DNA from: Toxorhynchites rutilus septentrionalis
Lineage: Eukaryota > Arthropoda > Insecta > Diptera > Culicidae
Length of the DNA: 64,000 nucleotides
NCBI RefSeq assembly: GCF_029784135.1
Contig: NC_073746.1
Span: forward strand, 61,602,097-61,666,096
Reading direction: 5' to 3'
The translations under genes were made by a program, and so were the position numbers. Positions 1 through 48,325 of this stretch are shown one piece after another. The stretch's first letter is position 1. Each line of letters begins with the position of its first letter. The notes under the pieces were generated by a model that searched no databases, was not told where the DNA came from, and was given only the letters and a program-made list of their open reading frames with translations.

Positions 1-90
1 GAAGTGTTGTGTGAAAGGTGAAAGTGTTTAGAATTAGCAAAAATTGATTCAATAATCGAGGCATTAGAAACACTTACGATCGATCCCGAC

Positions 91-4300: not shown

Positions 4301-4575
4301 GACAGAAGACTTACGACGAAATAATAGTTAGACTAAAAGAAGCTCAACACAAACAACTTGAAAGAGCAAATAAAAATAGTAAAACTGCACCTGCACTAGA
4401 AACTGGGCAAATGGTATATGTAAAAGACAAAATCATTCAAATCATCAAGAAAATATTCAAGAAAACTTTTGTTCAAAATAGCAATAAAGTAACGTTCAGG
4501 AACGAAGAAAATGCAAAACTACACAAATCTAATGTAAAAAATATCAACTTATTTCCAGGATCCCAGCAGTCTTAG
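1317..4575 (+). pseudogene. pol: Errantivirus Pol polyprotein, broken frame
   Basis: Domains appear in the expected order. The protease segment (1317-1538) contains LIDCGAN where the family normally has an Asp-Thr/Ser-Gly active site, so the catalytic triplet reads DCG. The frame is then lost near 1535; protease C-terminal coding resembling FFDGIIG continues in another frame to about 1680 and breaks again before 1800. Reverse transcriptase and RNase H (about 1800-3194) are continuous, with the catalytic YIDD box near 2430 and RNase H residues around TTDAS near 2885. A further one-base slip lies near 3185. Integrase follows to 4575, with the HHCC zinc finger (HNRAH then CDEC, 3625-3745) and D, D, E residues in HIDIF, VMDNE and GPVERFH. 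At least three frame breaks make this a pseudogene; the late motifs are still well kept, suggesting moderate age. Confidence 0.9.
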
Positions 4576-6068
4576 GAACACTGCAAATACAAAGCCTTAA
4601 CCAAGAACATGTAGCAATCATACACCTATCCCAGAGCAAAATTGTAACAGGGCAGTCTAAAGTTATAAACAAAATAAACACAACAAATATAGCATTAGCC
4701 GTACACGACATCAAAACCAAGATTCTGACTAGAGAAAATGACGACCCCGAAATGACAGCTTTACTAAAATGGAAAATAGATGAACTAGAAACAAACCTCA
4801 ACCAAATACAACCGGCACACCGACGACAAAAACGATGGGACGCACTCGGAAGAGCATGGAAGTGGATGTCAGGCTCACCAGACGCAGACGATTTACGACT
4901 TATCGACTCTGGAATTCACAAAATTACCGAAAATAGTAACCAACAAATTACTATCAATGACGATCTTTATGATGGGCTGAATAACATGACAGAAACCATT
5001 AATGATCTAATTAAGGAAGAAAATAAAACACACAGAGCAGTTAAGGCAGGAAATGATTTAATAAATATTATTCTCAATCTAGATATTATCAACCAGGAAG
5101 TATTAAAAATTCAAAATTCCATTACGCTATCAAAGTTGGGAATTGTTAATAATAGAATGCTTACATCAAAAGAGACAGATTTCATGATTCAAATTCTTAG
5201 CGATCAAGGTATACCAACCGAATTAATAGACGAGGCACTTGGGTTCGCAAGCGTCACCATAGGCACCAACGGACAAACTATACTCTACATCATCAACATT
5301 CCAAATCTTAGCAACTCAACATATCAGCACCTGAAAATTGCTCCTATAATAACAGATTCATTACGTATAAAACTGGAAGGAGATGAGTATCTCTACGGTA
5401 ATGACAAACTTTTCCTGAAAACAGACCATTGTTCAAGATTAGGCAACTGGAGTCTTTGCAACCACAACAGTTTGAAAGATGTTTCCTTAGACGAATGCAT
5501 ATCCAATATAATAATTGGCCACGACAGCAAGTGCACGTATGAGAACGTCGCGCATTACCCAATAGTAACGGAAATGAGTCCCACAATACTACTATTAAAT
5601 CAAGTGAACGATTCATTTCACAACACATGCGGAGTTTCCAATCGACGATTAATCGGATCATTCCTGATCACATACCAAAACTGCTCAGTTTCGATACGAA
5701 ACATGACATTCACAAATCAAATCATAGAAACCGTTGAGCATCCAATCTTCTCGCTTTCAACAGGACTAAATGTTGTTAAGCGGAAAATAGAACAGCAAAC
5801 CGACATTCATTCATTGAAAAGACTTCACCACAAAAACCTGGAACATCTGGAAAACCTGAAACTCACAACAGTTACACACCATTGGACAATAATCGGAGGA
5901 TTTTCATTTACAACTTCTATGATCATAATCTTTATCATCTACATTCTTTTCAAGTTTAGAACCCAATCAGCTAAAGCAACAATCAACCCAGAAAAGTCAA
6001 CCATAGATGATCATTTCGCTGACCCAGCACCAGTACATTTTTACCAACCACCATCGCTAAGAACCTGA
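4559..6068 (+). CDS. env: Errantivirus Env (baculovirus F-like) glycoprotein
   Basis: The frame is open from a stop near 4530 to 6068, but its first ATG (4752) lies only 23 residues before the basic cleavage-like site RRQKR, too late for a signal peptide. A good splice acceptor (pyrimidines then CAG, ending at 4558) lies just inside the end of the integrase frame, so Env is probably translated from a spliced RNA whose 5' exon supplies the start, as described for gypsy. After the cleavage-like site come a hydrophobic/glycine fusion-peptide-like stretch, a long helical region, several cysteines, potential N-glycosylation sites, a transmembrane segment near residues 380-398 counted from 4752, and a short cytoplasmic tail. 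No frame break was seen. Envelope function would be membrane fusion; whether this copy is expressed is unknown. Confidence 0.85.
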
Positions 6069-15750: not shown

Positions 15751-16914
15751 CTAAGGATATAATGCTAATATAAGCGGATTAGCGGAAATTGTACAAGATA
15801 ATCTGGAAGTAGGGGCCGTCCTGTTAATGAAGCATTCGATACTTTCTAGTTCTGCGATGTCGTGAAGTTCATCCATAGGGAAGTATGGAGATGGACCTAG
15901 CATCATTTTTAGCAACTGATTTTGTTTCACCTGAAGTCGCTTGAGATGTGTTTTCGCACAGCAACGCCACACGGGAGAACCGTAGGTAAGAACTGGACGG
16001 AAAATACATTTGAATAGTAGTAACTTGTTGGCTGTCTGTAACGTCGCCCTTCGGTTGATGAGCGGATATAAGGATTTGATAAGCACATTAGACTTTCTGA
16101 TAGTCATGTTGGTGTGGTCATGAAATAGTAATTTTTGGTCTAAAGTTAGACCTAGATATGTCACTTCTTTCTTCCACGGGATTGGCGTTCCGCAGACTTT
16201 TATTGTGAGCGCGTCTTCTTGTGAAGAAGATAGTTTGGGTTTTACTCGGGTTTATGTTAATTCGCCACCGGCGTTGGTACTCCTCAAGTGCGTTTTGGGC
16301 GTGTTGGAGCTTGGTAGTCACAATAGTCGGATCATCATCTGTGACAAGAAATCCAGTATCGTCGGCGAAGAATATGTAGTTTACTCCATCTATCATCACA
16401 ATGTCACATTGTAAACATAGCGATGATAGATGGAGTGTAAACATTGTAAAGCGTTGGACTGAAAACTGATCCTTGCGGTACTCCAAAGAGGATGTTGTGT
16501 CTTTCAGAGAGTGAGCCTTTTACAGACACACGAAAGTTCCTATTTGTGATGAAGGAATGTATGATTTTGATCATATATAAAGGACAGTTAGACCTGTAAT
16601 GTTTATGCCGCCTGCCAGACAGAGTCGTAAGCTTTCTCGACATCTAGCAGAACCATTCCTGTAGATTTCTTAGCCGCAAATCCTGCTCGAATGTTGTTGG
16701 TCACACGCAGAAGTTGTTGACAAGTTGAATGCCCATGTCTGAAACCAAACTGTTCATTTGGAATAATTCCCGACGCGTCGAGATGAGTGCTGAGGCGTTT
16801 TAATACTACACGTTCCAAAATTTTGCTGAGGCTGCATAGTAGGCTTATGGGCCGGTTGTTGTTCGGTAACGTGATGTCTTCATTCAGTTTTGGGATAGCT
16901 ACGACATTTTTCAA
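15751..16914 (-). pseudogene. LINE reverse transcriptase, frame-broken
   Basis: Read on minus in at least four overlapping fragments: RT blocks with NNRPISLLCSLSKILERVV and NEQFGFRHGHST (16700-16880), LDVEKAYDSVW (near 16630), GVPQGSVFSPTLYNVY (near 16460-16500), and the catalytic FADD in YIFFADDTGFLV (near 16380). A downstream thumb-like piece includes MTYLGLTLDQKLLF and RPVLTYGSPVW (15950-16160). Catalytic aspartates persist, but repeated frame changes make it inactive. Confidence 0.85.
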
Positions 16915-17010
16915 AATTTTTCGCTACTATTGGTTAAATTCCGTATTGTTGTACCGAAGTTCCGATATTTGTAAGAAGCGATTTCGTCTCGAATCTTGTG
17001 ATTCAGTTCC

Positions 17011-18021
17011 TCAACGATTGTTCTGAGAAAAAGGGTCTCTCGTGCGACCATACTGAAGGCGGCGGGAATTTCTTAATCGAATCAGCTGCTTTATATATCC
17101 AGGGAGCTCTTGTTTTTGAGGTGATCGCGTAACAAGAGGAACAGAAATATTTTCAGCATCCACGAGTGACGTGATGAAAACATTCATAGCGTCGTCGTTT
17201 GTTTGTGTTGAGTTCAGGTTGCTGATGAGAGGAGATGTGATATCCAGGTTCTGATAAAGAAAGCTGGAGTACAATCTCCAGTCAGCCCGACGATAGTTTC
17301 TGTATTGTCTCTCGAAGTGAAAAGGAGATTCTGCATTTATGGTGAATAATACCGGGAAATGATCTGATGATAGTTCTTCGAATACTTCAGGTAGAGTCAT
17401 GCTGATTAGATTGTTGGATAGTGGCAGGTCTAGTGTGGATGGACAACCCCTTCCTTGTGGAACCCGAGTGAATTTTTGTAGATGATGGATATAGAAATTA
17501 TGGTTTTCACATACATTGTACAGCAAACGACCAGCTCCATTTGTCTTACTGCAGTTCCATGATCGGTGCCGGGCATTTAGATCACCTATGACGAATAATG
17601 GTTCATCATAACGAGTGAGGGTTCTTATGTCTTTTTTGAAACGATTGAGGACAGTATTGTTACCATATCCCGAGAAATATGCAGCAATTATGTGCACGGG
17701 GGAAGTATCCGTTGTGATTGTTACTCCTACTGTTTCTATAGTAGAGGTTTGTAGATCCATCTTGACGAATCGTAGAGCATTGCGTACGAATACTGCCACT
17801 CCTCCCCCACGGTTGGTATCTTCGTTATTCCGGTCGACCCTCACACAGGTGAATTGCTTGTTGAAGATCGAGATTTTTGAAGTTAACCAAGTCTCCGTTA
17901 CTACTGCTATATCTACATCGTGTCTTTCCAGGAATTCGAAAAATTCGGATGATTTGTTTCGAATGGAACGACTGTTCCAGTTTAGTATTTTCAGACAGCT
18001 TCTATTGAACATTGTATACAT
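17011..18021 (-). pseudogene. LINE apurinic-like endonuclease domain (ORF2 N-terminus)
   Basis: A 336-residue frame starts at the ATG at 18021 and includes the AP-endonuclease signatures LNWNSRSI, TETWL, GGVAVFV, GDLNARH and SSDHFPV in order, giving Asn, Glu, Asp and terminal Asp-His catalytic residues. In target-primed retrotransposition it nicks genomic DNA. The domain is continuous, but the ORF ends before the RT, with a missing stretch and frame loss around 16915-17010. Confidence 0.85.
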
Positions 18022-18505
18022 ACTTAATCATAAGCTCGGACAGAGCTGCAAATTGCATTGTTTTGGAACGACAAGCAGAGAGACGTTCGAACATTTCTTT
18101 TGCCAGGTTCAGGAATTCGCTGGCAGTGAAGAGGAGAACATTAGTAGAAGTGTTAGATTTCAGAACGTCAGAAAAGTTGTAGTTCTGTTGGACGAAAGAT
18201 GAATTAAACGTTCGGGCTCGAGTATGTGTCGTGGTTTTATTTGCCAGTTGTTCTCTACGCTTCTGGAGGGCTTCGATGTATTGCCTTCTTTGTGGACATC
18301 CTTTGTAGTTGGCAGTGTGATTTTGTTTGCAATTGGCACAAAAGATTTTTTCCCGTGGGTTATTATCTGTTGTTAGAAGTGAACGTGGTGGTAGGTTAGG
18401 TGCAATTCACCACACTTCACACATTTGGCTTCAAGGTTGCAGTTTCTCATCCCATGTCCAAACTGCTGGCATCTGTAACATTGTACAGCATCGGTATTTT
18501 TACGA
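18002..18505 (-). pseudogene. LINE ORF1 (Gag-like) C-terminal part
   Basis: On minus, CYRCQQFGHGMRNC, CVKCGELH and CANCKQNH give three CCHC-type knuckles between about 18290 and 18490, then a charged tail ending at TAG (18002-18004), 20 bases inside ORF2. The protein would coat LINE RNA. The N-terminal half is absent because the sequence changes to a P1/P2 repeat at about 18510. Confidence 0.75.
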
Positions 18506-18784
18506 TTGTAAAAACAGGAAGTGGGTTATATCTATGGTATAACCGCAAGGGTGACGTAGGACTATCGTTGATTTAGAGATCATTTGTTTGAAGTTGAATC
18601 TGAATTCATTCTGAATGAATGAATATTTGGAGAACTTCGAAAACGAGAGCGTTACGTTGGAGGCACACGGTTTTATGCATCCAATATTGGATACGGAAAT
18701 ATCCTACTGATGGGAAGAATAATCTTCAGAAGCTATCCTGTTAATTGCGATTGATTGATAAATCACTAAACCAAATATATTTGG

Positions 18785-19073
18785 TCACAGTGTTACATGG
18801 ATAGAAAACATTAAAATAAACTCTTTCACATGAATGTAATTTTAAATTCCCAGAGGAACTGGCAGATTATTTTCAGTAACGATTAGATATTTCCACATTT
18901 TCCTCGATACTGGAAGCCCACCAGTGGTTTATGCTAACTCGATAACCATCTGTTAATAGCACTTGATTGGAACATATTTGGTCACAGTGTTACATGGATA
19001 GAAAACATTCAAATAAACTCTTTCACATGAATGTATTTTTAAATTCCCAGAGGAACTGGCAGATTATTTTCCG
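18785..19073 (+). repeat. 90-bp direct repeat, two copies
   Basis: The block beginning TCACAGTGTTACATGGATAG and ending AACTGGCAGATTATTTT occurs at about 18785-18877 and 18987-19073 with few differences, about 200 bp apart, inside repeat member I. Confidence 0.8.
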
Positions 19074-19119
19074 GATCTTTCTCGATGCTGAATGGCATCC
19101 AAACGGAAAGAATTCCGCG

Positions 19120-19125
<6 letters not shown>

Positions 19126-19152
<27 letters not shown>
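19126..19152 (+). repeat. (GT)n microsatellite
   Basis: A run of about 13 GT units. Confidence 0.95.
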
Positions 19153-19324
19153 AGCGGCTGCTTCGAGATCTTCCCGGGGAACCGTTTGTGGCATCACTCT
19201 CCTCCTGATGGATTCCTTTCTAGCCTAACGTGCACAAACAGGCTCTTGGTGACACCGTTCATCCGCGCTTTCATGATAAATGAAGAACTTCACCACAACA
19301 GCGACAACATGCTCCAATCGCTGT

Positions 19325-19375
19325 TCAATTAGAACTGAGTGGATTTCCGAGCGGCGCTCGCTTATATACCGATTG
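19325..19375 (-). promoter_or_regulatory. TATA-type core promoter candidate
   Basis: On minus the order is a CCAAT box (CACCAATCGG), the TATA box GGTATATAAGCGAG, a GC-rich spacer and an initiator-like TCAGTTC about 30 bp downstream. This spacing is that of an arthropod RNA polymerase II core promoter, in particular histone-type ones. The downstream transcript, toward 19150, has no coding region I can name. Confidence 0.5.
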
Positions 19376-19618
19376 GTGATTTCAATAGCCTGTTTTGAAA
19401 ACAAATTTAAGACTATTGAAACAAGTTTTTGGATCAGAAAGTAACAAGTATAGAACGCGTAGAAATTTTATCTTTCGAATGAAGTGTTTATCATACCATT
19501 TCGTTCAGTTGTTTAGGAGCTATTAACACCCAAAATCTCGGTCTCCGGCGTAACGCTTTCGTTTTCGAAACTTTGATTTTACATCCCGGTATAGAAATGA
19601 AAGACGTAGTCCTACGTC

Positions 19619-20306
19619 AAAACGCCAACTAACGATCACGTCGAAGAGCGTTTTGGTTTTTTGCAGTTCTTGTAGGCTGTAAGATTGTGTCCGTATCAGC
19701 TTTCGCGTCCGTTCTTCTCTTCGCTCATAGCCCGAATGACCGCTCGTAGCCCACCCATCAATGTATATGAATATAAAAGGTATGCATCGGTGAATAACAA
19801 TGTGAGGCAATACAAGGTGTGAGTAAATAGGTGTGTTGCAATGGTTTATTAATACAAGGTAGGCAATACACTACATAGGCGAATTGTTCCCTTCGTGAAC
19901 GTTAGGAGGTATAGCGCATTCTCTCCTCTATTGGAAGTATATAACATGTTGACATCCAGTGGTGTGATTATTTTTCAACTCCTCTTTAATTTCCTCTAGC
20001 TCAAATTTATGTAAGAACGAGAACGACTTTGATGGGTGTTGTATCACTTGTACCATGTGTGTAAAACCTGGTATCGCTTGATTTTAGCGCATTGAAAACA
20101 GTAGCAAAACTCTGTTTACATTTCATTTGGATCTGGATTCTCTCCCTGCCCAGTCTTAATGTGTAGTTTCCTGGACTAATATCCAGCGATGCCATTATTG
20201 AATTTTATTCCACCACGATTTTGTTATACACAACAATAGGCGGACAGCGATCTTTTGTTTTCGGATGTAGTTCATTTTTTTCATTTTTCTTATCTACAGC
20301 TGTAGC
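19619..20306. other. Unassigned sequence
   Basis: Short unrelated frames only. 19640-19760 is GC-richer, with a TATAAAAGG word at 19773 facing plus, but no supported gene. 19805-19920 contains repeated GGCAATACA words. Confidence 0.4.
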
Positions 20307-21875: not shown

Positions 21876-22368
21876 GATTGGAAAATAATTGAATGCTCTT
21901 TTCTGCTAGACTGCCACTATTATGCTATGCTAGATGACAGGAGGATCATAAAAAGGAGTAGAGGTGGAACTTGCGATGCAAAGTTCAGCTCTCTTCAGGG
22001 AACAGGAAAAAGGACGTGAAAGAAACGAGAATATTCAAAGAGTCGATAATATAAATTTTAACTAAATTGAAATATGAATGCAATCTTATTAAATTTTTAA
22101 TATTTTTGCCAACACTACAAAAAAGTTGGAAATCCTATACTTGTATATTTATCTTCGTTAATTATTTTCTTAATCAACCAATCAGAAACCGAGTTGTGAG
22201 TGGTCCGAGTTTGACAGTAAAAGTGGTCCGGAATCGGCCCCCTATTGTCATGTCTCGTCTCAGATTCGATCCACAACAATAACAATGCAAAGGTAACAAC
22301 AACAAAATGACACCCACATTAAAAACATGCGCATCTCCAGCATCGCTCAGTGAATAGTTCAATTTTTT
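21876..22368. other. Unassigned sequence
   Basis: Short frames without motifs. ACAACAATAACAATGC-type low complexity near 22270-22310. Nothing else seen. Confidence 0.4.
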
Positions 22369-25246: not shown

Positions 25247-25512
25247 CCAAGGCGCGTAGAAGTATATCCTAAGGTGGGCCAACTTGCTAAAATCACTCTT
25301 CAGCCATATTGGAAATCTACTGTGTTTTGTTTATAAACAAAACACAATACGCTTGTGCCCAAGCTCACTCGTGATCAGTCTGTCTCTTTCACGTTTCAAG
25401 CAAATAAATCCCCTTCTGCTTTCTTCCGTACTATTTTCATATACCGCTCCCTTAACCCACTTAGTGACAAAACGGCCTCACCTAGTACCATAGACCCGTC
25501 TTGGATACAACC
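25247..25512. mobile_element. GCG-TAGAAGTATATCC MITE, copy 1
   Basis: The left end AAGGCGCGTAGAAGTATATC and the interior match copies at 53029-53282 and 56117-56391 (words GTTTTGTTTATAAACAAAAC and GAAAGCAGAAGGGG or complement). It lies exactly between two P1-like TCTTGGATACAACC words, which look like a duplicated flank. No coding. Confidence 0.65.
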
Positions 25513-25779
25513 TCCTAGAATTTTTTTGACGTAGGACTACGTCTAACCGGAAGATATAGGGGGTGAAATGGAAATCTAGGCACTGAACAAGTAGGAAAAA
25601 ATGCAAGATTTGGAACGCATATAACTCGAGCATTTCTCAATAGATCGCAAAGGTTTTTGCATCAATTGATAGGAAATATATCTACGCATCTATCATAACG
25701 AATAACATTTCATTTTTCTTGAGATAAATAATTGAATAATTGTGAAATATCAAGCATTGTCAAAATGCACTATGTGCCC

Positions 25780-26047
25780 ATTTTTGATTGGTCCATTTTG
25801 TGCTCCTCATATCGTACCGACAAAAACGGGCAACCAGAGCAGCAGCGAAATAGAATGAAGCACGATTGGAAAGGAAAAAGAAAAAAAAAAGAACGAAACA
25901 TTGGTCGCAGTCTCACACATGCGTAATTCTCGAGCCAGCCAGTCAGCTTAAAAATCCCCGCTCCGCTGCCGTAACGATCATTCTCATTCAAACCGTACAC
26001 CACATCGGTTCGCATCACAAAACATCAACAAACCAACCCAAACAGCC
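25780..26047 (+). promoter_or_regulatory. Histone H2A-type promoter region
   Basis: A CCAAT box in reverse (TTGATTGGTCC) lies at 25783-25793, followed by GC-rich sequence, an AT-rich TTAAAAAT word near 25948 in TATA position, and a CA-rich leader ending directly at the H2A-like ATG (26048). Because it precedes an H2A remnant with its own 3' processing signals, this was probably genomic histone promoter DNA and did not come from a retrocopy. Confidence 0.6.
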
Positions 26048-26340
26048 ATGTCTGGACATGGTAAAGGAAGAAAAGTGAAGGGAAAGGCAAAATCCCGCTC
26101 GAACCGTGTTGATCCGGAATTCCCCGCAAAGGTAGCTAGGCCGAGCGCATTAGTACCAGTGCACCAGTCCACCTAGCCGGCGTTATATAGTTTCGTCGCC
26201 GAAGTGATCGAGTTAGCTGGCAAAGCTGCTCGCGACGATAAGAAAACCCGCATTCGGAACAGAACACATTCGGTTCGGTGGACATCAAGACAACAGGCAG
26301 TTGCAGCGAGTGGCGAGTGGCAAACGCAATCGCAAAACGG
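26048..26340 (+). pseudogene. Histone H2A pseudogene 1, copy A
   Basis: From the ATG the reading is MSGHGKGRKVKGKAKSRSNR, clearly the H2A N-terminal tail. The next part has lost about 30 bases (the VGRIH-RLLR region), then coding similar to KGNYAER (with a TAG stop), GAGAPVYLA and VIELAGKAARDDKKTRI follows in broken frame to about 26255. Later bases are hard to align. H2A is a core nucleosome histone; this copy cannot encode one. Replication-type 3' signals lie downstream at 26490. Confidence 0.85.
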
Positions 26341-26489
26341 CATTAGGTAGCAGAAGAAAAAAGTTTGTTCTTTATACAAACTGCTTTGGTGGCAAATCCA
26401 GAACAAGGCGGCATCGAGGTCGTTCGAAATGGTTTTTTTCAAAACCACGAGTACTAAGTTTTCTAAATTGGAACCATTCCATAAAACAA

Positions 26490-26526
26490 GGCGCTTTTCA
26501 GGGCCATTAAACCTTCCAAAAAAGAG
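26490..26526 (+). terminator. Histone mRNA 3' stem-loop with downstream element
   Basis: GGCGCTTTTCAGGGCC (26490-26505) fits the replication-dependent histone hairpin with one mismatched pair, and the purine-rich AAAAAAGAG about 12 bases later matches a histone downstream element for U7-guided cleavage. Confidence 0.75.
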
Positions 26527-26723
26527 TTTAGGAAATACAGTTCAATGCTTTCTAAAACATTATCCAAAATAATAATAAAACACAAATTGATTTTTTCATA
26601 ATTTGTTTGCCAGGACCTGATGAGTATGTGAATTTGGCAGTTGTTCTGAGCTTATTGATAGTTGAGGACTTTCCTGATTATTCAATTTTCACCAATTCTT
26701 AAATTGTTTCCAGATTGAAAGTA

Positions 26724-26943
26724 CAGTAATTTACAATTAGTTCGACATTTAGCTAATTGGACGGACATGTGATGCGACTTATTTAGTTGGACATTTTTGT
26801 AAACATAGAGATCCAAATTATGACCCCACATTGAAAGTCGACACTGTACCACTGTCATCGCAAATGTTCAATTACAGGTTAAAATCGCCTCCAATGCGAC
26901 ACTGAGTGGCGCTTCGGCACGTCGCATTGAATGTAATTTACTG
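26724..26943. mobile_element. GCGAC-type MITE inside histone repeat A
   Basis: Ends CAGTAATTTACA and TGTAATTTACTG-like, flanked by TA on both sides. Same family as 42620-42855, 44192-44364 and 46929-47139. Interior words include TGCGACACTGAGTGG and GTCGACACTGTACCACTG. No coding. Confidence 0.75.
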
Positions 26944-26959
26944 TACAACATGTTACAAA

Positions 26960-27116
26960 GCTGGATGGGAAGAAATTTTCCAACTGTGAAAGCTGTGGCG
27001 AGTGGCAACAAATCGCTAAACAGGAAGGTTTAGCCGAACAAGATGGGGATATCGAGTGATAACAAAACAATAAACTCTTTAGATTGAAGATAATTTTGTG
27101 ATCCTGAAAAGGACCC
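26960..27116. repeat. H2A 3'-coding fragment plus inverted histone stem-loop
   Basis: 26985-27060 resembles an H2A C-terminal stretch (compare 27700-27800), while at 27100-27115 the minus strand reads GGTCCTTTTCAGGATC with AAAGAG 20 bases beyond. Thus one histone 3' end points left here, opposite to the H2A pseudogenes, as if a divergent neighbour had been mostly deleted. Confidence 0.6.
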
Positions 27117-27339
27117 TTTTTAGCCTGCATGTGAATCCAACGAACAAACAAATCGTACTGAATGTATTTTTTTTTGCCATCGCTCCCTTTTAACGCTCAT
27201 TCGTTCGTCTCGTTGGACTCGCCCCTCTGGCTGAGTCTGCCGATTTGTCTCTATCCTGTGAGTGTGTACCGCTAGACAATAAAACACGCGGACCCCAAAA
27301 AAATCTTATTTTCTTTCAAACCGTAAACCCGTGTGGTTG

Positions 27340-27640
27340 TACGGCATCGGCATCGTGAACGTAACAAAGGAGGACAAGTTAAGGGAAAGGCAAAGTCTCA
27401 CTCGAACCGTGCAGGTCTCCAGATCCCTGTTGGTCGCATTCACTTATTGCTCTGCAAGGGTAACTAGGCCGAACGGATTGGTGCCGGAGCACCAGTATAC
27501 CTAACAGCGATTATAGAGTTTCGGCCGTCGGAGTGCTCGAGTTGGCTTGCAAAGCTGCTCACGACAATCAGAAAACCCGCATCAAGAACAGAGCAGCTTC
27601 GGTTCGGCGCTCATCAAGGCAACAATTAGTTTCAGTGAGT
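27340..27640 (+). pseudogene. Histone H2A pseudogene 2, copy A
   Basis: The start codon is altered, but coding resumes near 27360 with [20 protein letters not shown] and VGRIH, keeping the region lost in pseudogene 1, then KGN-stop-AERIGAGAPVYLTA. Later residues are in shifted frame (KLLTTIRKPASR in place of AARDNKKTRI). A perfect histone hairpin follows at 27823. Confidence 0.85.
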
Positions 27641-27822
27641 GGCAAAGTGTTTCTCCGGCACGTCGCATTAAATGTAATTAACTGAACAATATGTCACAAG
27701 CTGGATGGGAAGAAATTTTCCAACTGTGAAAGCTGTGGCGAGTGGCAAACGCAATAGCTAAACAGGAAGGTTTAACCGAACAAGATGGGAATATCGAGTG
27801 ATAACAAAAACACAACACCAAA

Positions 27823-27860
27823 GGTTCTTTTCAGAACCATCAACATATCCATAAAGAGTA
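27823..27860 (+). terminator. Histone mRNA 3' stem-loop with downstream element
   Basis: GGTTCTTTTCAGAACC (27823-27838) is a perfect 6-bp stem with the consensus TTTTCA-type loop region, followed by ATAAAGAGTA at about 27850, matching a histone downstream element. Confidence 0.8.
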
Positions 27861-28236
27861 AACAGTAAACTAATCCACTTTTCAGGTAGATAGGTAGGTA
27901 TTCACGTAGGAGAAGAAAATAAAACAATATATAAATATATATAAATATATATTTAACAAAAGCTGTCCCCTTTGTATAGTCCTACGTCACTCCGGTTATG
28001 TCCCCGACATTACCCACCCGTCTTTTTAAATAATAACAGACATGCTGTCATGTGCGAGCCCTGCGGTCTAAACTGCGTCGGATGAACAACGTATCCGAAG
28101 CGCGGCAAAATAGAGTTGTCCACAACAGTTTAATGGATAGTGATTTCAGATTCTGGACTGGTCAGCTTGTTTACCTGTCAAGAACTTATGAGGAGTGATC
28201 GCATGAACAGTATATGCAGTATGAAGCAGTATGTAT

Positions 28237-31109: not shown

Positions 31110-33748
31110 TCAATCATCTGTCTCCACTACCTCGACGATTAGGTCCATATCTCCCTGACTGCTGAATTGAAAAGCCGTACGATCGGTTTCCGCTTCCGTA
31201 TGGGTTCGTTCATGTTTCGACTGATCTGCCCGATATTTAAACTTTTTGTCGCATATTCGACACCTGTAAAGTAAAAAAAGAAACAAGTGAACGCAAAAGA
31301 GACCCCTAATTTGATCCCCGCCATACTTATAATTCAAGGTATCCGAATGTTTCCAGCGGTGTTCTTTCAGCGTTCGTTCGCGTACAAAAGCCTTCCCGCA
31401 CACGTCGCACGCCCACGGTCGAACGTTCTTGTGTGCGTCCATGTGCTCAACTAAACTGTTCTGTAATAAAAATGGGACGGGCAGCGGTTGTAATATCACG
31501 TACTGCTGCTGCTAGGTGAACGAACTTACCCTGAAACGAAAACTTTTGCCACATTGCTCGCAGCAGAAACGTTTGACACCGTCGTGAATATATTCGTGCA
31601 TATCAAGACTCTGTTTCGAAGGGAACCGTTTCGGGCAATGCGCGCAGTGAAACTTCAGTGTGTGTCTCGCCAGGTGGTTGTAGTGCTTGGCCCTATTTGT
31701 GGTGCTGAAATCACAGCCCTCCACTTGACACTTCCTCGGCGCAGCGAAGAATTGAGACTTTGGATACTGAGTTTTTGGATACTGGGTACTTGGGAGCTGT
31801 GGTTTCTTCTTCCTCGTCAGACCTTCATGCGCCACTGCGATGTGGTCATTCAGACAGTACCGGGATCGGAACCGTTTGCCACAAGTATCACATCGGAATC
31901 CTTTCTCACCCGTATGGGTACGCTCGTGGCCATGTAGACTAGTTTCGTTGGTGAACGTCTGAAATTCAACATTCCTCCTATGTAACGTGTTTGAATGCTT
32001 GGCGGATACGTGGGTCGACTTACCTTTTCACAGTACCTACATTTGTACGGTCTTTCCTGAGTATGGGAACGCTCGTGGCGCGTCATACGGGTTTTCGTGT
32101 CGAACTTTTTGTCACAATGACTGCACGGATAACGTCCATCGTCAAGCGCTTTGTGGGAGCGCATGTGTTTATGGAACCGTTTTCTGTTCTCCAATTGATG
32201 GCCGCAAATTTCGCAAGTGTATTTCGTCTTCGAATCTGCTCTATGGTGGTTCGACATATGGGCGTAAAGTGCCACTCGAGTGAACGTTTGTATCGGACAA
32301 GAGGCGATCGGACATCTGATCGAACCAGCATGCATTCGGAAGTGCCGGTGGAGTAAAATAAGAGAAGTGAACTGTTTCGCCTGCCCACTTTCATCCACAC
32401 ATCGATCACAGCTGTAAGGAAGCATATCCACATGATCCGGCAGATGTATATCCAGTGCGTCGGTGTCCGGAAACACGCTATCACAAATATAACACTTGTT
32501 TGGGTCAGGCTTTGTGTCCTTCATATCTATATTGTAGACACGTTTTGGCTGACGTTTCCTCTGAATAAATACGGGTCGTTCATCCGTTTCCTGTACCCCC
32601 ATAGGAGCTTCAACAAACTCTGGCTCTAGATTAACTTCTTCCGCGTAAATGAAAGTCTCTACCATTTTTCCCTCTTCTATACGCTCCTCCTCCGATTGCT
32701 CGTTTGATTCTTCTAAATCTATCACTGTTTCTAAATCGACAGTATCGACAGGCCTTTGCGAATCACGCTCAACTTTGAGAGGTTTGTCAACCAGAGCAGC
32801 CATAAACTTTTCCACGGGCATATTTTTGGTGATCTCCTCAAGCACTTCGTTCCCTGCCTGTTTCTCCAAATGCTCCTGCTTCTTGATTAGACGCATCCGG
32901 ATGATATCCTTATGTTGGCGAAGTATTTTCTCGCCATATGATTCCGTCGTGAGGCGAATTCCCTTCTGGTAATTTTGCAAATGCTCCAACAGGGTCTGTA
33001 TCCTAGTTAGGGAGAAGCTCTTCAGCGTACGATGCGTGTCCAGAAAATCCTTCCTAATATTGTATGCATAGTCGAGCCTTATCAAACAATTTATGCACAC
33101 TTTTTTGGGCAGTTTGTCGCGGAAATTAATATTAATCCCCGTAACGATGTAAAACATTTCCGGAACTAGCACATTCTGAATGCGGGACATAAGCGGGAAA
33201 AGATTCGGAATCTCGCGCAGACACAAGCGACAGAACGAATTAACACCTTCAATCGGAATGTCCAATGGATTGGTTATTATTTCGACTTGGGGAAGTGGAA
33301 GTTCCACCGGTTCCTCGTCAAGTTCTTCCTTAATGTCTGTTGATTGGAAAATATCAAACGAAAACAAAGTATTAAGATAACAGCTATTTTGGTGAATCAC
33401 AAATACTGGTTACCATCACTGTCTAGATCAAAGTCATGCCATAAATTGGCATCAAATAAAGGCTCACTTTTCTTGACAGATGAAACGGATGTTGGTTCAA
33501 TTTTCAGCTCTTCGAAGATTTCGTCGTCTGAATCTTCAAGCTTTTCAACGATCATCTCTTCATCATAACATTCCTCTGTTGTATCCAGTCTACAATCGTC
33601 TGCTGAAATGTTAACTAATAAAAATGAACTTAAGCCGTTTGCGATTTTTCAAAATATATTATTTATATGCATCAGACTCACTGGTTTCATTATACACAAC
33701 ACTTGGAGTGTCTGCAACCATATTATTAGATAGCAGTCTCCGGCGCAT
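31110..33748 (-). CDS. ZAD-domain C2H2 zinc-finger protein, gene 1
   Basis: Six exons on minus with GT-AG borders and matching phases: 33748-33682, 33602-33414, 33336-32024, 31958-31530, 31460-31327, 31263-31110, coding for 761 residues. The zinc-finger-associated ZAD domain begins at residue 121 (CRLC) with its second pair at 166-169 (CINC); such domains dimerise insect zinc-finger factors. An acidic linker follows, then about twelve C2H2 fingers, for example CEICGHQLENRKRFHKH, CDTCGKRFRSRYCLNDH and CDVCGKAFVRERTLKEH. It is therefore a nuclear DNA-binding protein. A poly(A) signal lies on minus at 31056-31051. No break was seen. The gene at 58608-61217 is an inverted paralog with the same exon plan; its single-exon reading through intron 3 would be artefactual. 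The DNA target is unknown. Confidence 0.92.
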
Positions 33749-34930: not shown

Positions 34931-35217
34931 TAGCGTGCAGCGTTGTATAGCTCCCTGAATAGGGTTGTTCAAGTTGTTCGAACTCATCAGACTAAATTTC
35001 TTTATTGAGTTTTTATTTATTATTTTTTTTTTACGAAATTATTGTTTTTTTTTCAAGAAGATTTTTGATTTGAGCTAGTTTTTAGTTTAAGTTAGTTTTT
35101 AGTCTAAGTTAGTTTTAAGTTGAGTTTTTGCGCGAGTGTGTGCGTGTGAGTTGTGTGTGTGCGTGCGAGTTTCTTTTTCGTTTTCATAGGCGGTTGCGCA
35201 CCGTCTGCGCAACCGTT

Positions 35218-36180
35218 ATGACATCTGCTGATGCCAATGTTGCGCGGACGCGTTATTATCAGCAGTCCTCGAAGGCACCATGGGTTGTTTTCTTTCGACC
35301 CAAGGAAAAAGCTTTGAGAACTCTTGATATTTCAAGAGATTTGCTGCGTAATTATAAGGGCGTCTCGATACATAAAGAGAGACCGGACAAACTGCGTGTA
35401 GAAGCGCCGACTTTTGATGTGGCCAACAAGATTGTTGACCACGAAGTTTTTAACAGGGAGTATCACATCTACATCCCTTCTCGAGAAGTGGAGATAGAAG
35501 GCGTAGTAACCGACGCGAGTCTGAGTGTCGATGAACTAAAACAAGCGTCGGGTTCCTTCAAAAACTCGATGATTGGAGATCTTGTAAAGATCCTGGATGT
35601 TAGAAATCTGCATTCAGCATCTTTGGAAGAAAATAAAAAAGTTTATAAGCCCTCGCACTCTTTTCGAGTTACTTTCGCAGGTTCTGTTCTCCCAAACTAT
35701 GTGAAAGTAGAAAATGTTTTTTTCCCAGTGCGCCTGTTTGTACCGCGGGTTTATAATTGTACCAAATGTAAAAAGTTGGGACACTCGGTTAGCCACTGCG
35801 GTAACAAATTTCGTTGCGGCAAATGTGGCGATAAACATAGTGAGGATTCTTGCACTCAAACAGTGGAAAAATGTATTCACTGTGGCGAGAATCCTCACCC
35901 TCTACAAGAGTGCCCAAGGTTATATGGGTCTACCCCAAGGCTCATGTCTCAGCCAAGGCGTTGTATTATAGGTGGACCGCAATGTCAAAATTGCTGTTCG
36001 GCCATTGCTCGTGAAAAAACAAATTTGTTTACAAAACAAGTCGTATTTTTTGGTGACAAATGCATTCGTTGGCAAAATAGCTGCCCGCGCTTTATTGTTT
36101 ATTGTAAAATGTACTTCTGTTTGGCTCCCATCGGCGGGGAAAAGAGTACTATCAGCTACGGCGATGGTGACAAACAATAA
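35218..36180 (+). pseudogene. I-type LINE ORF1 (Gag-like)
   Basis: From the ATG at 35218 the frame is open. The first 200 residues have the RRM-like fold expected from APWVVFFRPK and VYKPSHSFRVTFAGSVLPNYV, followed by CCHC knuckles CTKCKKLGHSVSHC, CGKCGDKHSEDSC and CIHCGENPHPLQEC (35755-35915). The tail after residue 235 does not look like Gag and probably reflects the internal deletion junction. It would bind the LINE RNA. Confidence 0.8.
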
Positions 36181-36484
36181 CGCTGATTGTGGCTCCACTG
36201 ATTTCGCTCAGGAAGGAGGAGAATGCTGTGCATATACCTGGAAGGAGATCCGGAAAGAGCTTGTAACGGTAATTGGCTAGAGCAAAAGGAGGTTGTGCAC
36301 TATATTCCACGAATATATATTTGCTTATTTTTTCCTTCAATTATTTTCCTTAGCGAGTTGACATTGAAATCATAACCACACACCCAAACAAAAAGTAAAT
36401 AATTCTGAAAGTTACGTCTCGCTACTCGTCTCACGTCATGTCCTGAAAGTGTCAAGAACGAAACACCTATAGTTCAGCATCTTG

Positions 36485-37865
36485 GTCTCAGCCCCCTTCT
36501 TTATAATTTTTATGTGAAAGATATTGACAGTTGTTTGGCAGAACAATGCACGCTAAGACAACTTGCAGATGATGGTGTGGTTTCCTTCAGAGGTCCCCAT
36601 GCCGAAAACTTGCAATGACTATTGCAAAATTCACTAGATAACTTGTCTCAACGCATAACATGAGTCTCGAGGTTCTGGCAGGAGTAACTCCTCTACAGAA
36701 CCGATTCTGGGAACTTTCTCTCAGAATACTGGTGAATTGCGGTATCACGAACACACTTGTGATTGAAAACTTTGATAAAATTCTTCATCTAAATATACAA
36801 TCTCGGTTTATGAGAATTTATCATCACTATATTTCATCAGATATTTGTCTTCCATCGTTTACTCCAGACCGTGCTCACTTCACCATCAGCAGTTCCTCAA
36901 TTGAATACGATCTGTCGATGAAACAAGCAATACTTGGGATTTCAGATCAGCTTCGACCAACTTTCATTCCCCGTATTTTTAACCGAAAGTACCAAAAAGT
37001 CAATTGCATGAAAAGATACTTCACTGATGGGTCTCGCCTCAATGGATCCACTGGCTTCGGTGTTTTCAATGAAAATTCAAGCGCCTTCCGTAAACTGCAG
37101 GAACCTTGTTCCGTTTATGTTGCTGAGCTGGCAGCAATCGACTTCGCATTGGGGATGATCTCCAACAAGCCTGCAGACCATTACTTCATTTTCTCGGATA
37201 GTCTCAGTTCGCTTGAGGCTTTCCAGTCGATGAAAACTAGTAGGCACCCATCTTATTTCCTCACAAAAGTGAGACAGCAGATGAGTGCACTGATCGAAAG
37301 ATCTTATAAGTTAACCTTTGTTTGGGTCCCCTCTCATTGCTCAATTCCTGGCAATGAGAAGGCGGACACTCTCGCAAAGGTGGGTGCCCAGGAAGGCGAA
37401 TTGTTTGATAGACAGATTTCATACGATGAATTTTTCCAATTACTGCGTCAGAGTTCCCTCTTGAGTTGGCAAACCGATTGGGACACTGGAAGTCTTGGGC
37501 GGTGGTTATATTCAATTATTCCAAAGGTTTCTTCGAGAGCGTGGTTCAAAGGTTTGGACTTAAGTCGTGACTTCATTCGTGTAATGAGTAGACTTATGTC
37601 CAACCACTACTCGCTAGATGTGCATCTCCACAGAATAAATCTTGTTCAAAGCAACGTCTGTCGGTGTGGAAACGGTTACGATGACATCGATCACGCAGTT
37701 TGGCAATGTACGGATAATTACGCAGCCAGAGAGTACCTTTTGAATGCCCTTGAGGTCCAAGGAAGACAACCCTATGTTCCTGTTAGAGACGTGTTGGGAA
37801 CTCGCGACATCTGCTATATGCAGTTGATCTATATGTTTGTGAAACGGTCTAGTATAAGTATTTAA
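36485..37865 (+). pseudogene. I-type LINE ORF2 remnant: RT tail, RNase H, zinc-binding end
   Basis: 36485-36640 encodes the end of RT motifs with LADD in place of the catalytic YADD or FADD, then a stop. From 36660 a 401-residue frame carries RNase H: YFTDGSRLNG, VAELAAIDFAL, FSDSLSSLEAF and WVPSHCSIPGNEKADTLA supply Asp, Glu, Asp and His-Asp. A C-terminal CRCGNGYDDIDHAVWQC zinc-binding motif follows. RNase H residues are intact, but without endonuclease and RT the element is dead. Confidence 0.85.
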
Positions 37866-42323: not shown

Positions 42324-42619
42324 GGACCTTACACGGTCAAATTTATTGACAATATGATGACATTTGAGAGCATAATGACAGCTAAACATGGCCGACAACG
42401 CAGAAATCCGGATTTTCTGATTTTCGGGCATCAATATCGTGACATTTCATATGGATGCATGATGTTGACGTTTTACCTCACGGACTTCCAGACTGAGTTG
42501 CCAGATTTGCAAGCGGACATTTAATGTTTGTTAGTCTTTTTTGCGATTGCAATTAAAATTTATAAACTTCTGAAATTGTAGCAATCATAAATGAAAGCTT
42601 TTGGTTTGGAAAACTGATA

Positions 42620-42855
42620 TAGTAATTTACATTTAATGCGACATGCCGGAGTACCACTCAGTGTCGCATTGGAGGCGATTTGACCTGTAATTGGACATTG
42701 AAGATGAGAGTGGTACAGCGTCGACGTCTGGCGGCGAATGTCAATGTGGGGCCATAATTTGGGCCCGAACTCGATGTTTACAAAAATGTCTAACTAAACG
42801 TGTCGCATATAGGTCTGTCCAATTAGAAAAATGTCGCATTAAATGTAAATTACTG
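42620..42855. mobile_element. GCGAC-type MITE
   Basis: AGTAATTTACATTTAATGCG on the left and its complement ending TACTG on the right; interior TGTCGCATT and GTCGACG words match the other copies. Confidence 0.8.
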
Positions 42856-43121
42856 TACCTAAAATAGCAAAATACAGTACTTTTCGCGATACAAACCAAA
42901 ACCTCAAAGTAACTGACAATGTGATGGTGAGAGAGTGAATGAAAATTAACAACGTCTTAGGACTGTTTAAAACATTGAACTCGTTCATTCTTTGCGCTAG
43001 CGAGCGGGGCAGCCACTTTAGTCTAAGTTGTGTGTTTCTTCACACTCCGCTATAAAATTTGGAGAATGAGAAGATCTGGGAAAATCACAGGTGAAAAAAC
43101 ATCACGTGTTAATTCAAGTTA

Positions 43122-44951: not shown

Positions 44952-46214
44952 TCATAGTCTTATTTATGGAATAAAAACATTTGCTTGCAGATAATATAAT
45001 TTGCATATATTTTCACAATCTAAAATAATTTGGCATCCCTGAAACTGAAAGGAACAGTCTGTATTTGTGAAGCGAGTATTATGATGTGTTTTTGAGAAGG
45101 AAAAACGAGTTTTAAAGTGTAAATTATGAATGAAAATTACCTTTTCCGAATCAAATTAGTATTCTATGTGAATGCAAATCACTATTTTCTGTAAGTGATG
45201 AGAAAATCCCATACAAAAATTGTGTCTGAAATTGACGTTATATTGTAATAATAAATTTTAGTAGGAATGTCTGAAAATTCAGAGGAAATGAGGTTAAGTT
45301 AGGGTTAGGACTACGCGCTTCAACTAATTAAATAATGCCAAGTAGCTATTTTCATTCAAATTTGACCAATTGAAAATTGCCTTTTAGCCTTCTAATCTGA
45401 TGAAGAATATTTTGGATCCCAAACTCGAATGTCGCCACTAGCCATTGCGGATACTTTCGTTGTTTCGGGTTGAGGGCGATATTGACCGTGTAAGGTGGCA
45501 AAATATTGATTGAGGTGAGATCGGATGTCGAAAGCCTAGCTGTCACGATATTGAAGACACTTATTGTCAATCATTTCGATCGTGTAAGGTGCCCAATAAG
45601 CAAACTTTGGCTTTGACAGATGAACGAAGCGTTACTAATAAAACAATGACGCGTTACTAATAAAACAAGTACTAATATTTTTAGTCCGATGTAAGATTAT
45701 TATGCAACACAAAATATTAGAACTTTTAGATTCTAGACTTGTAACTTGTAACCAATACTATGAGGCTGATTATGCAACAGGGCCCTGGTTGTAAATCTAA
45801 TAGCGAATTCGTTTTTAAAACTGAGTTAGTGTCACACTGACTCTGAAATAAAAAAAGACGGGTGGGTAATGTCGGGGACATAACCGGAGTGACGTAGGAC
45901 TATACAAAGGGGACAGCTTTTGTTAAATATATATTTAAAATATATTGTTTTACTTTCTTCTCCTACGTGAATACCTACCTATCTACCTGAAAAATGGATT
46001 AGTTTACTGTTTACTCTTTATGAATATGTGATGGTTCTGAAAAGAACCTTTGGTGTTGTGTTTTTGTTATCACTCGATATTCCCATCTTGTTCGGTTAAA
46101 CCTTCCTGTTTAGCTATTGCGTTTGCCACTCGCCACAGCTTTCACAGTTGGAAAATTTCTTCCCATCCAGCTTGTGACATGTTGTTCAGTAAATTACATT
46201 TAATGCGACGTGCC

Positions 46215-46515
46215 GGAGAAACACTTTGCCACTCACTGAAACTAATTGTTGCCTTGATGAGCGCCGAACCGAAGCTGCTCTGTTCTTGATGCGGGTTTTC
46301 TTATTGTCGTGAGATGCTTTGCAAGCCAACTCGAGCACTCCGATGGCCGAAACTCTATAATCGCTGTTAGGTATACTGGTGCTCCGGCACCAATCCGTTC
46401 GGCCTAGTTACCCTTGCGGAGCAATCAGTGAATGCGACCAACAGGGAACTGGAGACCTGCACGGTTCGAGTGAGACTTTGCCTTTCCCTTAACTTGTCCT
46501 CCTTTGTTACGTCCA
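46215..46515 (-). pseudogene. Histone H2A pseudogene 2, copy B
   Basis: On minus it matches 27340-27640, including [20 protein letters not shown] coding, the TAG within KGN-AER, and the altered start. It shares breaks with copy A, so they were inherited from a common ancestor. Confidence 0.8.
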
Positions 46516-47489
46516 CGATGCCGATGCCGTACAACCACACGGGTTTACGGTTTGAAAGAAAATAAGATATTTTTTTGGGCTCCGCGTGTTTTATACTCTA
46601 GCGGTACACACTCACAGGATATAGAAAAATCAGCAGACTCAGCCAGAGGGGCGAGTCCAACGAGACGAACGAATGAGCGTTAAAAGGGAGCGATGGCAAA
46701 AAAATACATTCATTACGATTTGTTCGCTCGTTGGATTCACATGCAGGCTAAAAAGGATCCTTTTCAGGATCACAAAATTATCTTCAATCTAAAGAGTTTA
46801 TTGTTTTGTTATCACTCGATATCCCCATCTTGTTCGGCTAAACCTTTCTGTTTAACGATTGCATTTGCCGCTCGCCACAGCTTTCACAGTTGGAAAATTT
46901 CTTCCCATCCAGCTTGTGACATATTTTACAGTAAATCACATTCAATGACACGTCGCATTACCACCACTCAGTATCGGATTGGAGGTAATTTTAACCTGTA
47001 ATTGAACATTTGCGATGACAGTGGTACAGTGTCGACTTTCAATGTGGGGTCATAATTTGGATCCCTATGTTTACAAAAATGTCCAACTAAATATGTCGCA
47101 TTACAATTAGCTAAATGTCGAAATAAGTGTAAATTACTGCACTTTCAATCTAGAAGCAATTTAAGAATTGGTGAAAATCAATAAGCTCAGAACAACTGCC
47201 AAATTCACATACTCAACAGATCCTGGCAAACAAATTATGAAAAAATCAATTTGTGTTTTATTATTATTTTGGATAATGTTTTAGAAAGCATTGAACTGTA
47301 TTTCCTAAACTCTTTTTTGGAAGGTTTAATGGCCCTGAAAAGCGCCTTGTATTATGGAATGGTTCCAATTTAGAAAACTTAGTACTCGTGGTTTTGAAAA
47401 AAAACATTTCGAACGCCCTCGATGCCGCCTTTTTCTGGATTTGCCACCAAAGCAGTTTGTATAAAGAACAAACTTTTTTCTTCTGCTAC

Positions 47490-47789
47490 CTGATGCCGTT
47501 TTGCGATTGCGTTTGCCACTCGCCACTCGCTGCAACTGCCTGTTGTCTTGATGTCCACCGAACCGAATGTGTTCTGTTCCGAATGCGGGTTTTCTTATCG
47601 TCGCGAGCAGCTTTGCCAGCTAACTCGATCACTTCGGCGGCCGAAACTATATAACGCCGGCTAGGTGGACTGGTGCACTGGTACTAACGCGCTAGGCCTA
47701 GCTACCCTTGCGGGGAACTCCAGATCAACACGGTTCGAGCGGGATTTTGCCTTTCCCCTCACTTTTCCTCCTTTACCATGTCCAGACAT
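47490..47789 (-). pseudogene. Histone H2A pseudogene 1, copy B
   Basis: The ATG is at 47789; the reading MSGHGKGGKVRGKAKSRSNR keeps GlyGly where copy A has GlyArg, so it is slightly closer to normal H2A. The same 30-base loss and stop codons follow. Confidence 0.85.
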
Positions 47790-48311
47790 GGCTGCTTGGG
47801 TTGGTTTGTTGATGTGTTGTGATGCGAACCGATGTGGTGTACGGTTTGAATGAGAATGATCGTTACGGCAGCGGAGCGGAGATTTTTAAGCTGACTGGCT
47901 GGCTCGAGAATTACGCATGTGTGAGACTGCGACCAATGTTTCGTTCATTTTTTTCTTTTTCCTTTCCAATCGTGCTTCATTCTATTTCGCTGCTGCTCTG
48001 GTTGCCCGTTTTGGTCGGTACGATTTGAGGAGCACAAAATGGACCAATCAAAAATGGGCACATAGTGCATTTTGACAATGCTTGATATTTCGCAATTATT
48101 CAATTATTTATCTCAAGAAAAATGAAATGTTATTCGTTATGATAGATGCGTAGATATATTTCCTATCAATTGATGCAAAAACCTTTGCGATCTATTGAGA
48201 AATGCTCGAGTTATAAGCGTTCCAAATCTTGCATTTTTTCCTACTTGTTCAGTGCCTAGATTTCCATTTCACCCCCTATATCTTCCGGTTAGACGTAGTC
48301 CTACGTCAAAA

Positions 48312-48325
48312 AACCTTTTCAGGTT
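48312..48325 (+). terminator. Isolated histone-like stem-loop
   Basis: AACCTTTTCAGGTT directly beyond the outer P2 resembles a histone hairpin with a shorter stem. No histone coding is adjacent, so it is uncertain. Confidence 0.35.

Follow-up and report, generated by a model that had tools for sequence, protein, structure and literature searches.

The closest described counterpart of the element analyzed here is Helentron-Cq-32A of the mosquito Culex quinquefasciatus, which carries histone gene fragments and was reported in eight copies (Thomas, Vadnagara and Pritham, 2014; PMC4067079). The present work concerns a stretch of 64,000 nucleotides from the mosquito Toxorhynchites rutilus septentrionalis (NCBI RefSeq assembly GCF_029784135.1, contig NC_073746.1, positions 61,602,097 to 61,666,096 of the forward strand; hereafter, the window), in which a block of 2.5 kb with degenerate histone H2A genes occurs twice. 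The block is a mobile element that is complete and dispersed: it is a non-autonomous Helentron (HINE), and it carries broken units of H2A together with promoter-type DNA and stem-loops of the histone 3' type. The author of an earlier note, made from the window sequence without database searches, knew of no described family like it; in fact, Helentrons and HINEs are such a family, and the capture of histone fragments by a Culex Helentron was reported in 2014 (PMC4067079).

Helentron-Cq-32A (PMC4067079) and the Toxorhynchites element have in common the palindromic subterminal inverted repeats (subTIRs), the 3' stem-loop, the insertion at TT or T-runs and the broken state of the histone fragments. 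Unlike the tandem H2A units found here, the Culex cargo comes from two histone genes, H4 and H1/H5 (H15). The Toxorhynchites case also differs in its promoter-type DNA, its histone 3' stem-loop, an intact Helentron frame and a short derivative in many copies. The DINE-1/HINE elements of Drosophila and mites are similar in end anatomy, lack of coding capacity, T-rich targets and absence of target-site change. They differ in that gene fragments, in the set of the 2014 paper, were confined to Culex and Phytophthora elements, besides earlier-annotated examples (PMC4067079). The canonical gene-capturing Helitrons of maize and bats share the rolling-circle transposon lineage and the captured gene pieces. 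Canonical Helitrons have the ends TC...CTRR, whereas the ends observed here are TTGACG... and ...CCCGTC followed by T's. Moreover, they insert between A and T (PMC4067079), in contrast to the T-run ends and the endonuclease-bearing partner protein described below, and a canonical Helitron was rejected on these grounds.

Results

The Block Has the Termini of a Helentron

The two window copies are inverted to each other, 20 kb apart, as the earlier note had described, and could be aligned from end to end with 94.8% identity over 2512 columns (Table 1). Its statement that both carry the same internal breaks was nearly right, since about 27 bp and 10 bp of copy 1 are missing from copy 2, together with smaller gaps. 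The true ends were found slightly beyond those given earlier, at a T-run before GACGTAGG (25521-25527) and at CCGTC followed by five T's (28018-28027). The palindromes that bound the block are real: TTTTGACGTAGGACTACGTC, with up to three mismatches, occurs seven times in the 64 kb of the window and in none of 100 shuffles.

The termini were compared in 41 copies, namely the 40 best-scoring places fetched from the genome search (L001-L040, L001 being window copy 1) and window copy 2. The same two termini were present in all of them, in 39 straightaway and in L034 and L036 after longer DNA was taken (L041, L042). At the 5' end, a run of 2-16 T's is followed by GACGTAGGACTACGTC in 39 copies, with one altered letter in a few, and T's also precede the palindrome in the longer DNA of L034 and L036; the exact position of the end inside the T-run cannot be fixed. 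At the 3' end, the order is TAGTCCTACGTCA, the hairpin ATGTC-CCC-GACAT, ACCCACCCGTC and a T-run. By script count this run has five or more T's in 37 of 39 copies, including L031 with an altered tract, and four in L027 and L040.

This anatomy is that of Helentrons and HINEs. The palindromic subTIR, expected 2-4 nt from the 5' end, is preceded by at least two T's; an inverted subTIR of at least 11 bp, expected about 38-60 bp from the 3' terminus, is represented by 13 bp at 38 bp; and the palindrome or stem-loop, expected 8-35 bp from the 3' terminus, lies at 17 bp, its energy not being exceptional. A scan of viral contigs for the element terminus gave 0 matches, and a literature search for its letters found none.

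The Element Is Dispersed Through the Genome

The host assembly comprises 902,557,243 bases in 514 contigs, and the window corresponds to C3:61602097-61666096. The search suggested in the earlier note, with positions 25528-27988 as query, returned 51 matches in 40 places. Scoring was limited to 40 of the 3099 candidates of the first look, a set that holds the best-scoring copies but not window copy 2; all copy numbers are hence lower bounds, with room for many copies beyond the 41 examined.

Copies with identical ends sit on contigs C1, C2 and C3, tens of megabases apart. When the 700-bp flanks were compared in 39 copies (pairs above 85%), only L017 and L018, on contig C287, shared both flanks (100%), and these two were counted as one insertion event. 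The other similar pairs consisted of repeat pieces on one side only. The longest such stretch was common to L030 and L037 in their right flanks (563 columns, 88%, with a 22-base offset); flanks of L023 and L027 also belong here, and these lie in older copies of the histone element itself. Divergence from the majority sequence ranged from 0.9 to 8.4%, most copies being at 1-2.5%, L008 at 3.4%, and L030, L031, L032 and L035 at 5.6-8.4%. The host copies in which L023 and L027 are nested are about 90% identical to the element, which indicates that the activity of the family extends over some time. The unit is thus dispersed and amplifying, as had been proposed, with both ends in 41 of 41 copies; it is limited neither to its two places in the window nor to the surroundings of intact histone clusters.

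Insertion Occurred Into T-runs

Three copies (L023, L027 and L034) are nested in older copies of the same element, and their empty sites could be read. The host sequence TTTT of L027 (as in copy 1) is now TTTT on both sides, and TTTTT in L034 (as in copy 1) is now four and five T's. In L023, a host resembling copy 2 would have had seven T's (ten stand at this place in copy 1), and seven and five are now found. The gain at the nested sites was four, four and perhaps five T's, and the joined flanks of L023 and of L027 each restored a continuous older copy with about 90% identity. A plain duplication of TTTT may also fit the three sites and is not told apart from T's carried by the element.

Exact words of at least seven letters were common to both flanks in 11 of 39 copies; those adjacent to the element on both sides were T-rich (L004 and L015), and the remaining ones were not adjacent to both ends. 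Apart from T-rich letters, this exact-word test of 39 copies revealed no target duplication. The target duplications that the earlier note had proposed to map were not found, as expected for Helentrons. In published Helentrons, the number of T's varies with no other change of the target site (PMC4067079), and the three self-nested empty sites likewise revealed T-rich insertion with no other target change.

The Cargo Consists of Broken H2A Gene Units

The cargo was identified as H2A because of tblastn matches, the Rfam stem-loop and the genome H2A search, which listed L015 (C2:202667378). With a Drosophila H2A query, the two remnants noticed earlier in copy 1 were matched by tblastn (Table 1), and a match with E 1e-26 was obtained in copy 2 (46514-46335). 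With H2B, H4 and H3 as queries, no match in the whole window was better than E 3.2. None of the four stop-free H2A pieces, three of which have only 24-35 amino acids and the fourth 97, was assigned a histone domain by Pfam; one weak unrelated match appeared in the same run.

The Rfam scan covered window positions 24000-64000. One stem-loop per window copy was above the curated 34-bit cut-off, as in replication-dependent histone genes. Of the three stem-loops claimed for copy 1, one was hence firm and the other two were weak matches under the cut-off; only one weak stem-loop recurs in copy 2 (47306-47351, 23.5 bits). An opposite-strand sequence of the histone stem-loop type, GGTCCTTTTCAGGATC (27104-27119, -), lies between the two H2A units and is absent from the Rfam output; it is possibly what is left of the end of a histone gene in the opposite orientation. 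The motifs upstream of the first remnant (25799-26047) are presumably of the GATTGG/CCAAT and initiator types, the latter being TCATTC.

All 20 copies compared lose the second H2A frame at residue 61-62, 19 of them have a stop after GN (L012 differs), and 15 have two stops in this unit. The count was made on 20 of the 21 copies then available, L008 being omitted for its internal duplication. The H2A genes were already broken in the common founder of the element copies. L031 has three H2A units.

In addition, 14 of 39 copies (L013, L015, L017-L020, L022, L023, L027-L029, L031, L035 and L038) contain at element positions 445-463, near the H2A transcription start, an insert of 184-236 bp, sometimes as a dimer of about 412-420 bp. 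It is flanked by a repeated stretch of 19 bp (14 bp in L022) and has been carried along in several copies.

An Intact Helentron Frame Precedes the Same 3' End

The domain PF14214 (Helitron_like_N) gave at least 132 genome matches, with 150 of 1313 candidates scored, and none in 14 control genomes. Nine of the loci (L044-L052) were examined, three of them with about 10 kb of DNA. Locus L051 (C2:6600000-6609900) contains an open reading frame (ORF) of 1674 codons from stop to stop, with the first ATG at codon 14. Its matches to Helitron_like_N (1.3e-22), PIF1 (2.1e-33) and Exo_endo_phos (2.8e-7) were each over the cut-off, and the frame carries the sequence PHAHILLWL, which we take to be the HUH-type site.

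The 3' end of L051 is that of the histone element, with 97.9% identity over the last 95 bp and 93% over the last 223 bp, well over the 80% in the last 60 bp that marks a Rep/helicase-endonuclease partner with a common 3' end. Furthermore, the DNA that precedes the ORF is 92% identical to element positions 607-1769, and an H2A match was obtained in it by tblastn (E 1e-10). Sequence of the older copy L031 is found on either side of the ORF, interrupted by a gap of 8.9 kb, and the same holds for L030 and L035 with somewhat lower identity. This is the form expected of deletion derivatives and an argument for assigning the upstream H2A DNA to the element that contains the ORF. A second, inverted copy of the element 3' end was observed at L051 9796-9890, about 2 kb downstream of the Helentron 3' end.

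The L051 frame had only two full-length matches in the genome (23 of 23 candidates scored), itself and a copy at C2:26.08 Mb on the minus strand (100%); pieces of a copy with 92-96% identity were found at C2:168.4 Mb. Locus L050 has a frame of 1564 codons with the make-up of L051, its endonuclease match being just under the cut-off (24.2 versus 24.5 bits), and the two proteins are 67% identical. No histone match was found in L050, and behind its frame lies the 3' end (93%) of another HINE, the one at window positions 18510-19622. In L052, 5'-type termini were found downstream of a frame of 1169 codons.

Intact H2A Genes Lie Elsewhere

In the whole-genome H2A search, 150 of 20767 candidates were scored. 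By hand count, 59 of these 150 were intact and 100% identical to the query, clustered in at least two chromosomal places (C2:101.6-102.7 Mb and C3:233.55-233.68 Mb) and on small contigs, and five further ones were intact at 92-98% in single places. At the C3 cluster, an open frame of 195-210 codons surrounds the match of 124 amino acids. Another 63, with about 55-75% identity, were broken, each having a single TGA and a single TAG, 62 of them on C1-C3 and one on a small contig; one more broken match of the TGA/TAG type was at 90%. Two stops also occur in the second H2A of 15 of the 20 element copies, and the pattern may reflect one broken founder. No intact H2A was found by tblastn with the Drosophila query in the 64 kb of the window.

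Other Elements in the Window

A complete HINE of another subfamily, with the same architecture (Table 1, last row), contains internal direct repeats (18774-18874 and 18971-19071, 97%) and had no histone match by tblastn with the histone queries. Further Helentron 5' termini of the same type, with different interiors, were found at 22363 (+), 31035 (-), 52803 (-) and 62967 (+), giving seven in the window. HINEs of the subfamily with the GGTTAT...ATAACC hairpin are apparently nested inside the histone element copies L022 and L040, as inserts of 1165 and 1634 bp. The window also has two inverted zinc-finger gene copies with 78.5% DNA identity (31110-33409, -, and 58694-60820, +; family assigned by eye). 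Four long open frames at 22-6068 (+) resemble a long terminal repeat (LTR) retroelement (gag, reverse transcriptase, integrase and env-like), and open frames at 15751-18406 (-) and 35119-37865 (+) resemble non-LTR retrotransposons, again by eye.

Table 1. Coordinates of the two histone-bearing copies, their parts and a related element in the window (ssDNA, single-stranded DNA; MITE, miniature inverted-repeat transposable element; UTR, untranslated region).
Feature	Position	Strand	Evidence
Copy 1, complete histone-bearing non-autonomous Helentron (HINE)	25522..28027	+	sharp ends common to 41/41 copies
Copy 2, inverted complete copy of the histone-bearing HINE	45852..48313	-	94.8% end-to-end identity; both termini present
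5' Helentron DNA, 78% like another window element (31035-30759, -); GATTGG common to both	25523..25798	+	
5' subTIR, palindromic GACGTAGGACTACGTC, T-run before it	25528..25543	+	ssDNA hairpin -4.4 kcal/mol, z -1.48
H2A-type upstream DNA, GATTGG/CCAAT-type motifs and TCATTC initiator-like site	25799..26047	+	read from sequence
H2A remnant 1, ATG kept, frame broken	26048..26254	+	tblastn E 6e-16
Weak histone 3' stem-loop match	26426..26471	+	Rfam RF00032 24.5 bits, under 34-bit cut-off
Weak histone 3' stem-loop match, AAAGAG downstream	26485..26530	+	Rfam RF00032 24.0 bits, under cut-off
MITE-like insert whose inverted arms have 26 nt (81%); the window holds relatives at 42618-42858 and in other places	26721..26946	+	
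H2A remnant 2, with a TAG stop and a broken frame close to residue 62	27354..27592	+	tblastn E 2e-24 for 27360-27536
Duplicated segment, 91% identical to 26912-27067	27653..27809	+	
Intact histone 3' UTR stem-loop (GGTTCTTTTCAGAACC), AAAGAG downstream	27818..27862	+	Rfam RF00032 40.4 bits, E 1.2e-8
3' subTIR TAGTCCTACGTCA, inverted 13-bp match to 5' subTIR, 38 bp from 3' terminus	27977..27989	+	
3' terminal hairpin ATGTC-CCC-GACAT, 17 bp from end	27998..28010	+	ssDNA -4.0 kcal/mol, z -1.47
3' terminus, CCGTC and five T's	28018..28027	+	
Counterpart of the firm stem-loop in copy 2	46007..46053	-	Rfam RF00032 37.3 bits
Complete HINE of another subfamily, same subTIR, 3' hairpin GGTTATACC-ATA-GATATAACC, same architecture	18510..19622	-	

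Discussion

We consider it highly probable that the block is a non-autonomous Helentron whose H2A cargo came from captured histone gene DNA and which was moved in trans. According to the proposed course of events, a Helentron would have taken up tandem H2A gene DNA of the replication-dependent type, with promoter, coding region and 3' stem-loop, and the H2A frames would then have decayed. Loss of the Rep/helicase/endonuclease gene by deletion could have left the 2.5-kb derivative, in which the two termini and the histone cargo are retained. The short copies may have been moved in trans by an intact Helentron protein of the L051 type, probably through a rolling-circle type of step, as proposed for Helentrons, with insertion into T-runs and no target duplication. 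The histone pieces would be passengers.

Several points weigh against this account. Mobility was read from sequence. The 5' terminus of the L051 element lies beyond the fetched DNA, and the upstream H2A could in principle belong to a neighboring copy; both full-length matches of its frame are on C2, and one could be a recent duplication. As ssDNA, both terminal hairpins are only moderately better than shuffles (z about -1.5). The T-rich word of nine letters TTTTTTATT, found at both ends of L015, could also be produced by duplication. Finally, the cargo was tied to no given cluster, and its uptake as DNA from a histone array is an inference.

Of the alternatives, the one that survives best, unlikely as it appears to us, is that the histone cargo is functional, its promoter or stem-loop aiding the element, for instance if the Helentron gene downstream were transcribed in S phase or in the germline. 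In line with this, the partner-type locus L051 has H2A DNA upstream of its ORF, the distal stem-loop is above the cut-off in both window copies, and a Culex Helentron also carries histone fragments (PMC4067079). Nevertheless, 3.3-3.5 kb separate the end of the H2A-related DNA from the ORF, and conservation of the histone parts does not exceed that of the rest: in 39 rows, the mismatch per site was 2.17% in the firm stem-loop and 1.96% and 2.50% in the H2A parts, versus 2.05% in the whole element, and only the last 54 bp were better conserved (1.14%). The weak stem-loops were at 1.62% and 1.95%. These rows exclude L018 (the duplicate of L017) and L034 and L036 (5' ends outside the first fetch), and copy 1 was entered twice, as the reference and as L001. 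A special constraint on the histone parts was rejected, as their mismatch is similar to that of the whole element in a sample biased to young copies. A wider conjecture, for which the chances are equally small, is that mosquito Helentrons took up histone genes more than once (H4 and H1/H5 in Culex, H2A here) because the promoters and 3' signals of replication-coupled histone genes would set their transcription to S phase or the germline. If true, transcription would coincide with the time when single-stranded rolling-circle intermediates can form and insert, and the histone DNA would be a working regulatory part of the transposon.

It is very improbable that the block is a cut-and-paste DNA transposon of the MITE type, with terminal inverted repeats and histone DNA as cargo. 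The inverted 13-bp repeats near the ends, the lack of coding capacity and the many copies would suit such an element, and a duplication of four T's would fit L027 and L034 too. It was rejected, as the extreme ends are not mutual inverted repeats (TTTTGACGTAGG versus AAAAAGACGGGTGG) and no fixed duplication beyond T-runs is clear; moreover, the same 3' end lies behind an intact Rep/helicase/endonuclease frame. Equally little credence was given to retroposed histone mRNA pseudogenes that were later amplified. Broken coding regions and a histone 3' stem-loop as in the mRNA would be expected of them, whereas the promoter-type DNA upstream, the DNA past the stem-loop with AAAGAG and the tandem units, two in the window copies and three in L031, weigh against them. 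Judged from sequence features, the promoter-type DNA and the 3' signals point to genomic histone DNA, not to a retroposed mRNA; the firm statement of this origin in the earlier note was supported, short of proof. The least probable alternative is that histone-cluster DNA was duplicated locally as a segment, with unequal exchange or duplication in the assembly accounting for its spread. It is refuted as a general account by the common ends and the empty sites of self-nested copies: the inverted window copies 20 kb apart and the shared flanks of L017 and L018 would suit it, in contrast to the identical-ended copies on three contigs and the intact H2A genes, which lie in two clusters, a few single places and small contigs, with none in the window.

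A captured histone cargo in a non-autonomous Helentron thus remains the preferred reading. The capture of histone genes by Helentrons is itself known; the different histone, the tandem units with regulatory signals and the many-copy family of short derivatives are new. No further case beyond PMC4067079 was found in the literature searched, most subscription papers being outside its scope. Gene capture by Helentrons is sparsely documented, and the present case is recent, in many copies, and beside an intact frame with the same cargo, so that capture, decay, deletion to a non-autonomous form and spread may be traced in order within one genome. For annotation, dispersed broken H2A matches in this genome are likely transposon cargo and would inflate histone counts. 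As a second histone-carrying Helentron, the element makes it testable whether such captures occur by chance, histone clusters being large and repeated targets, or because they bring a benefit.

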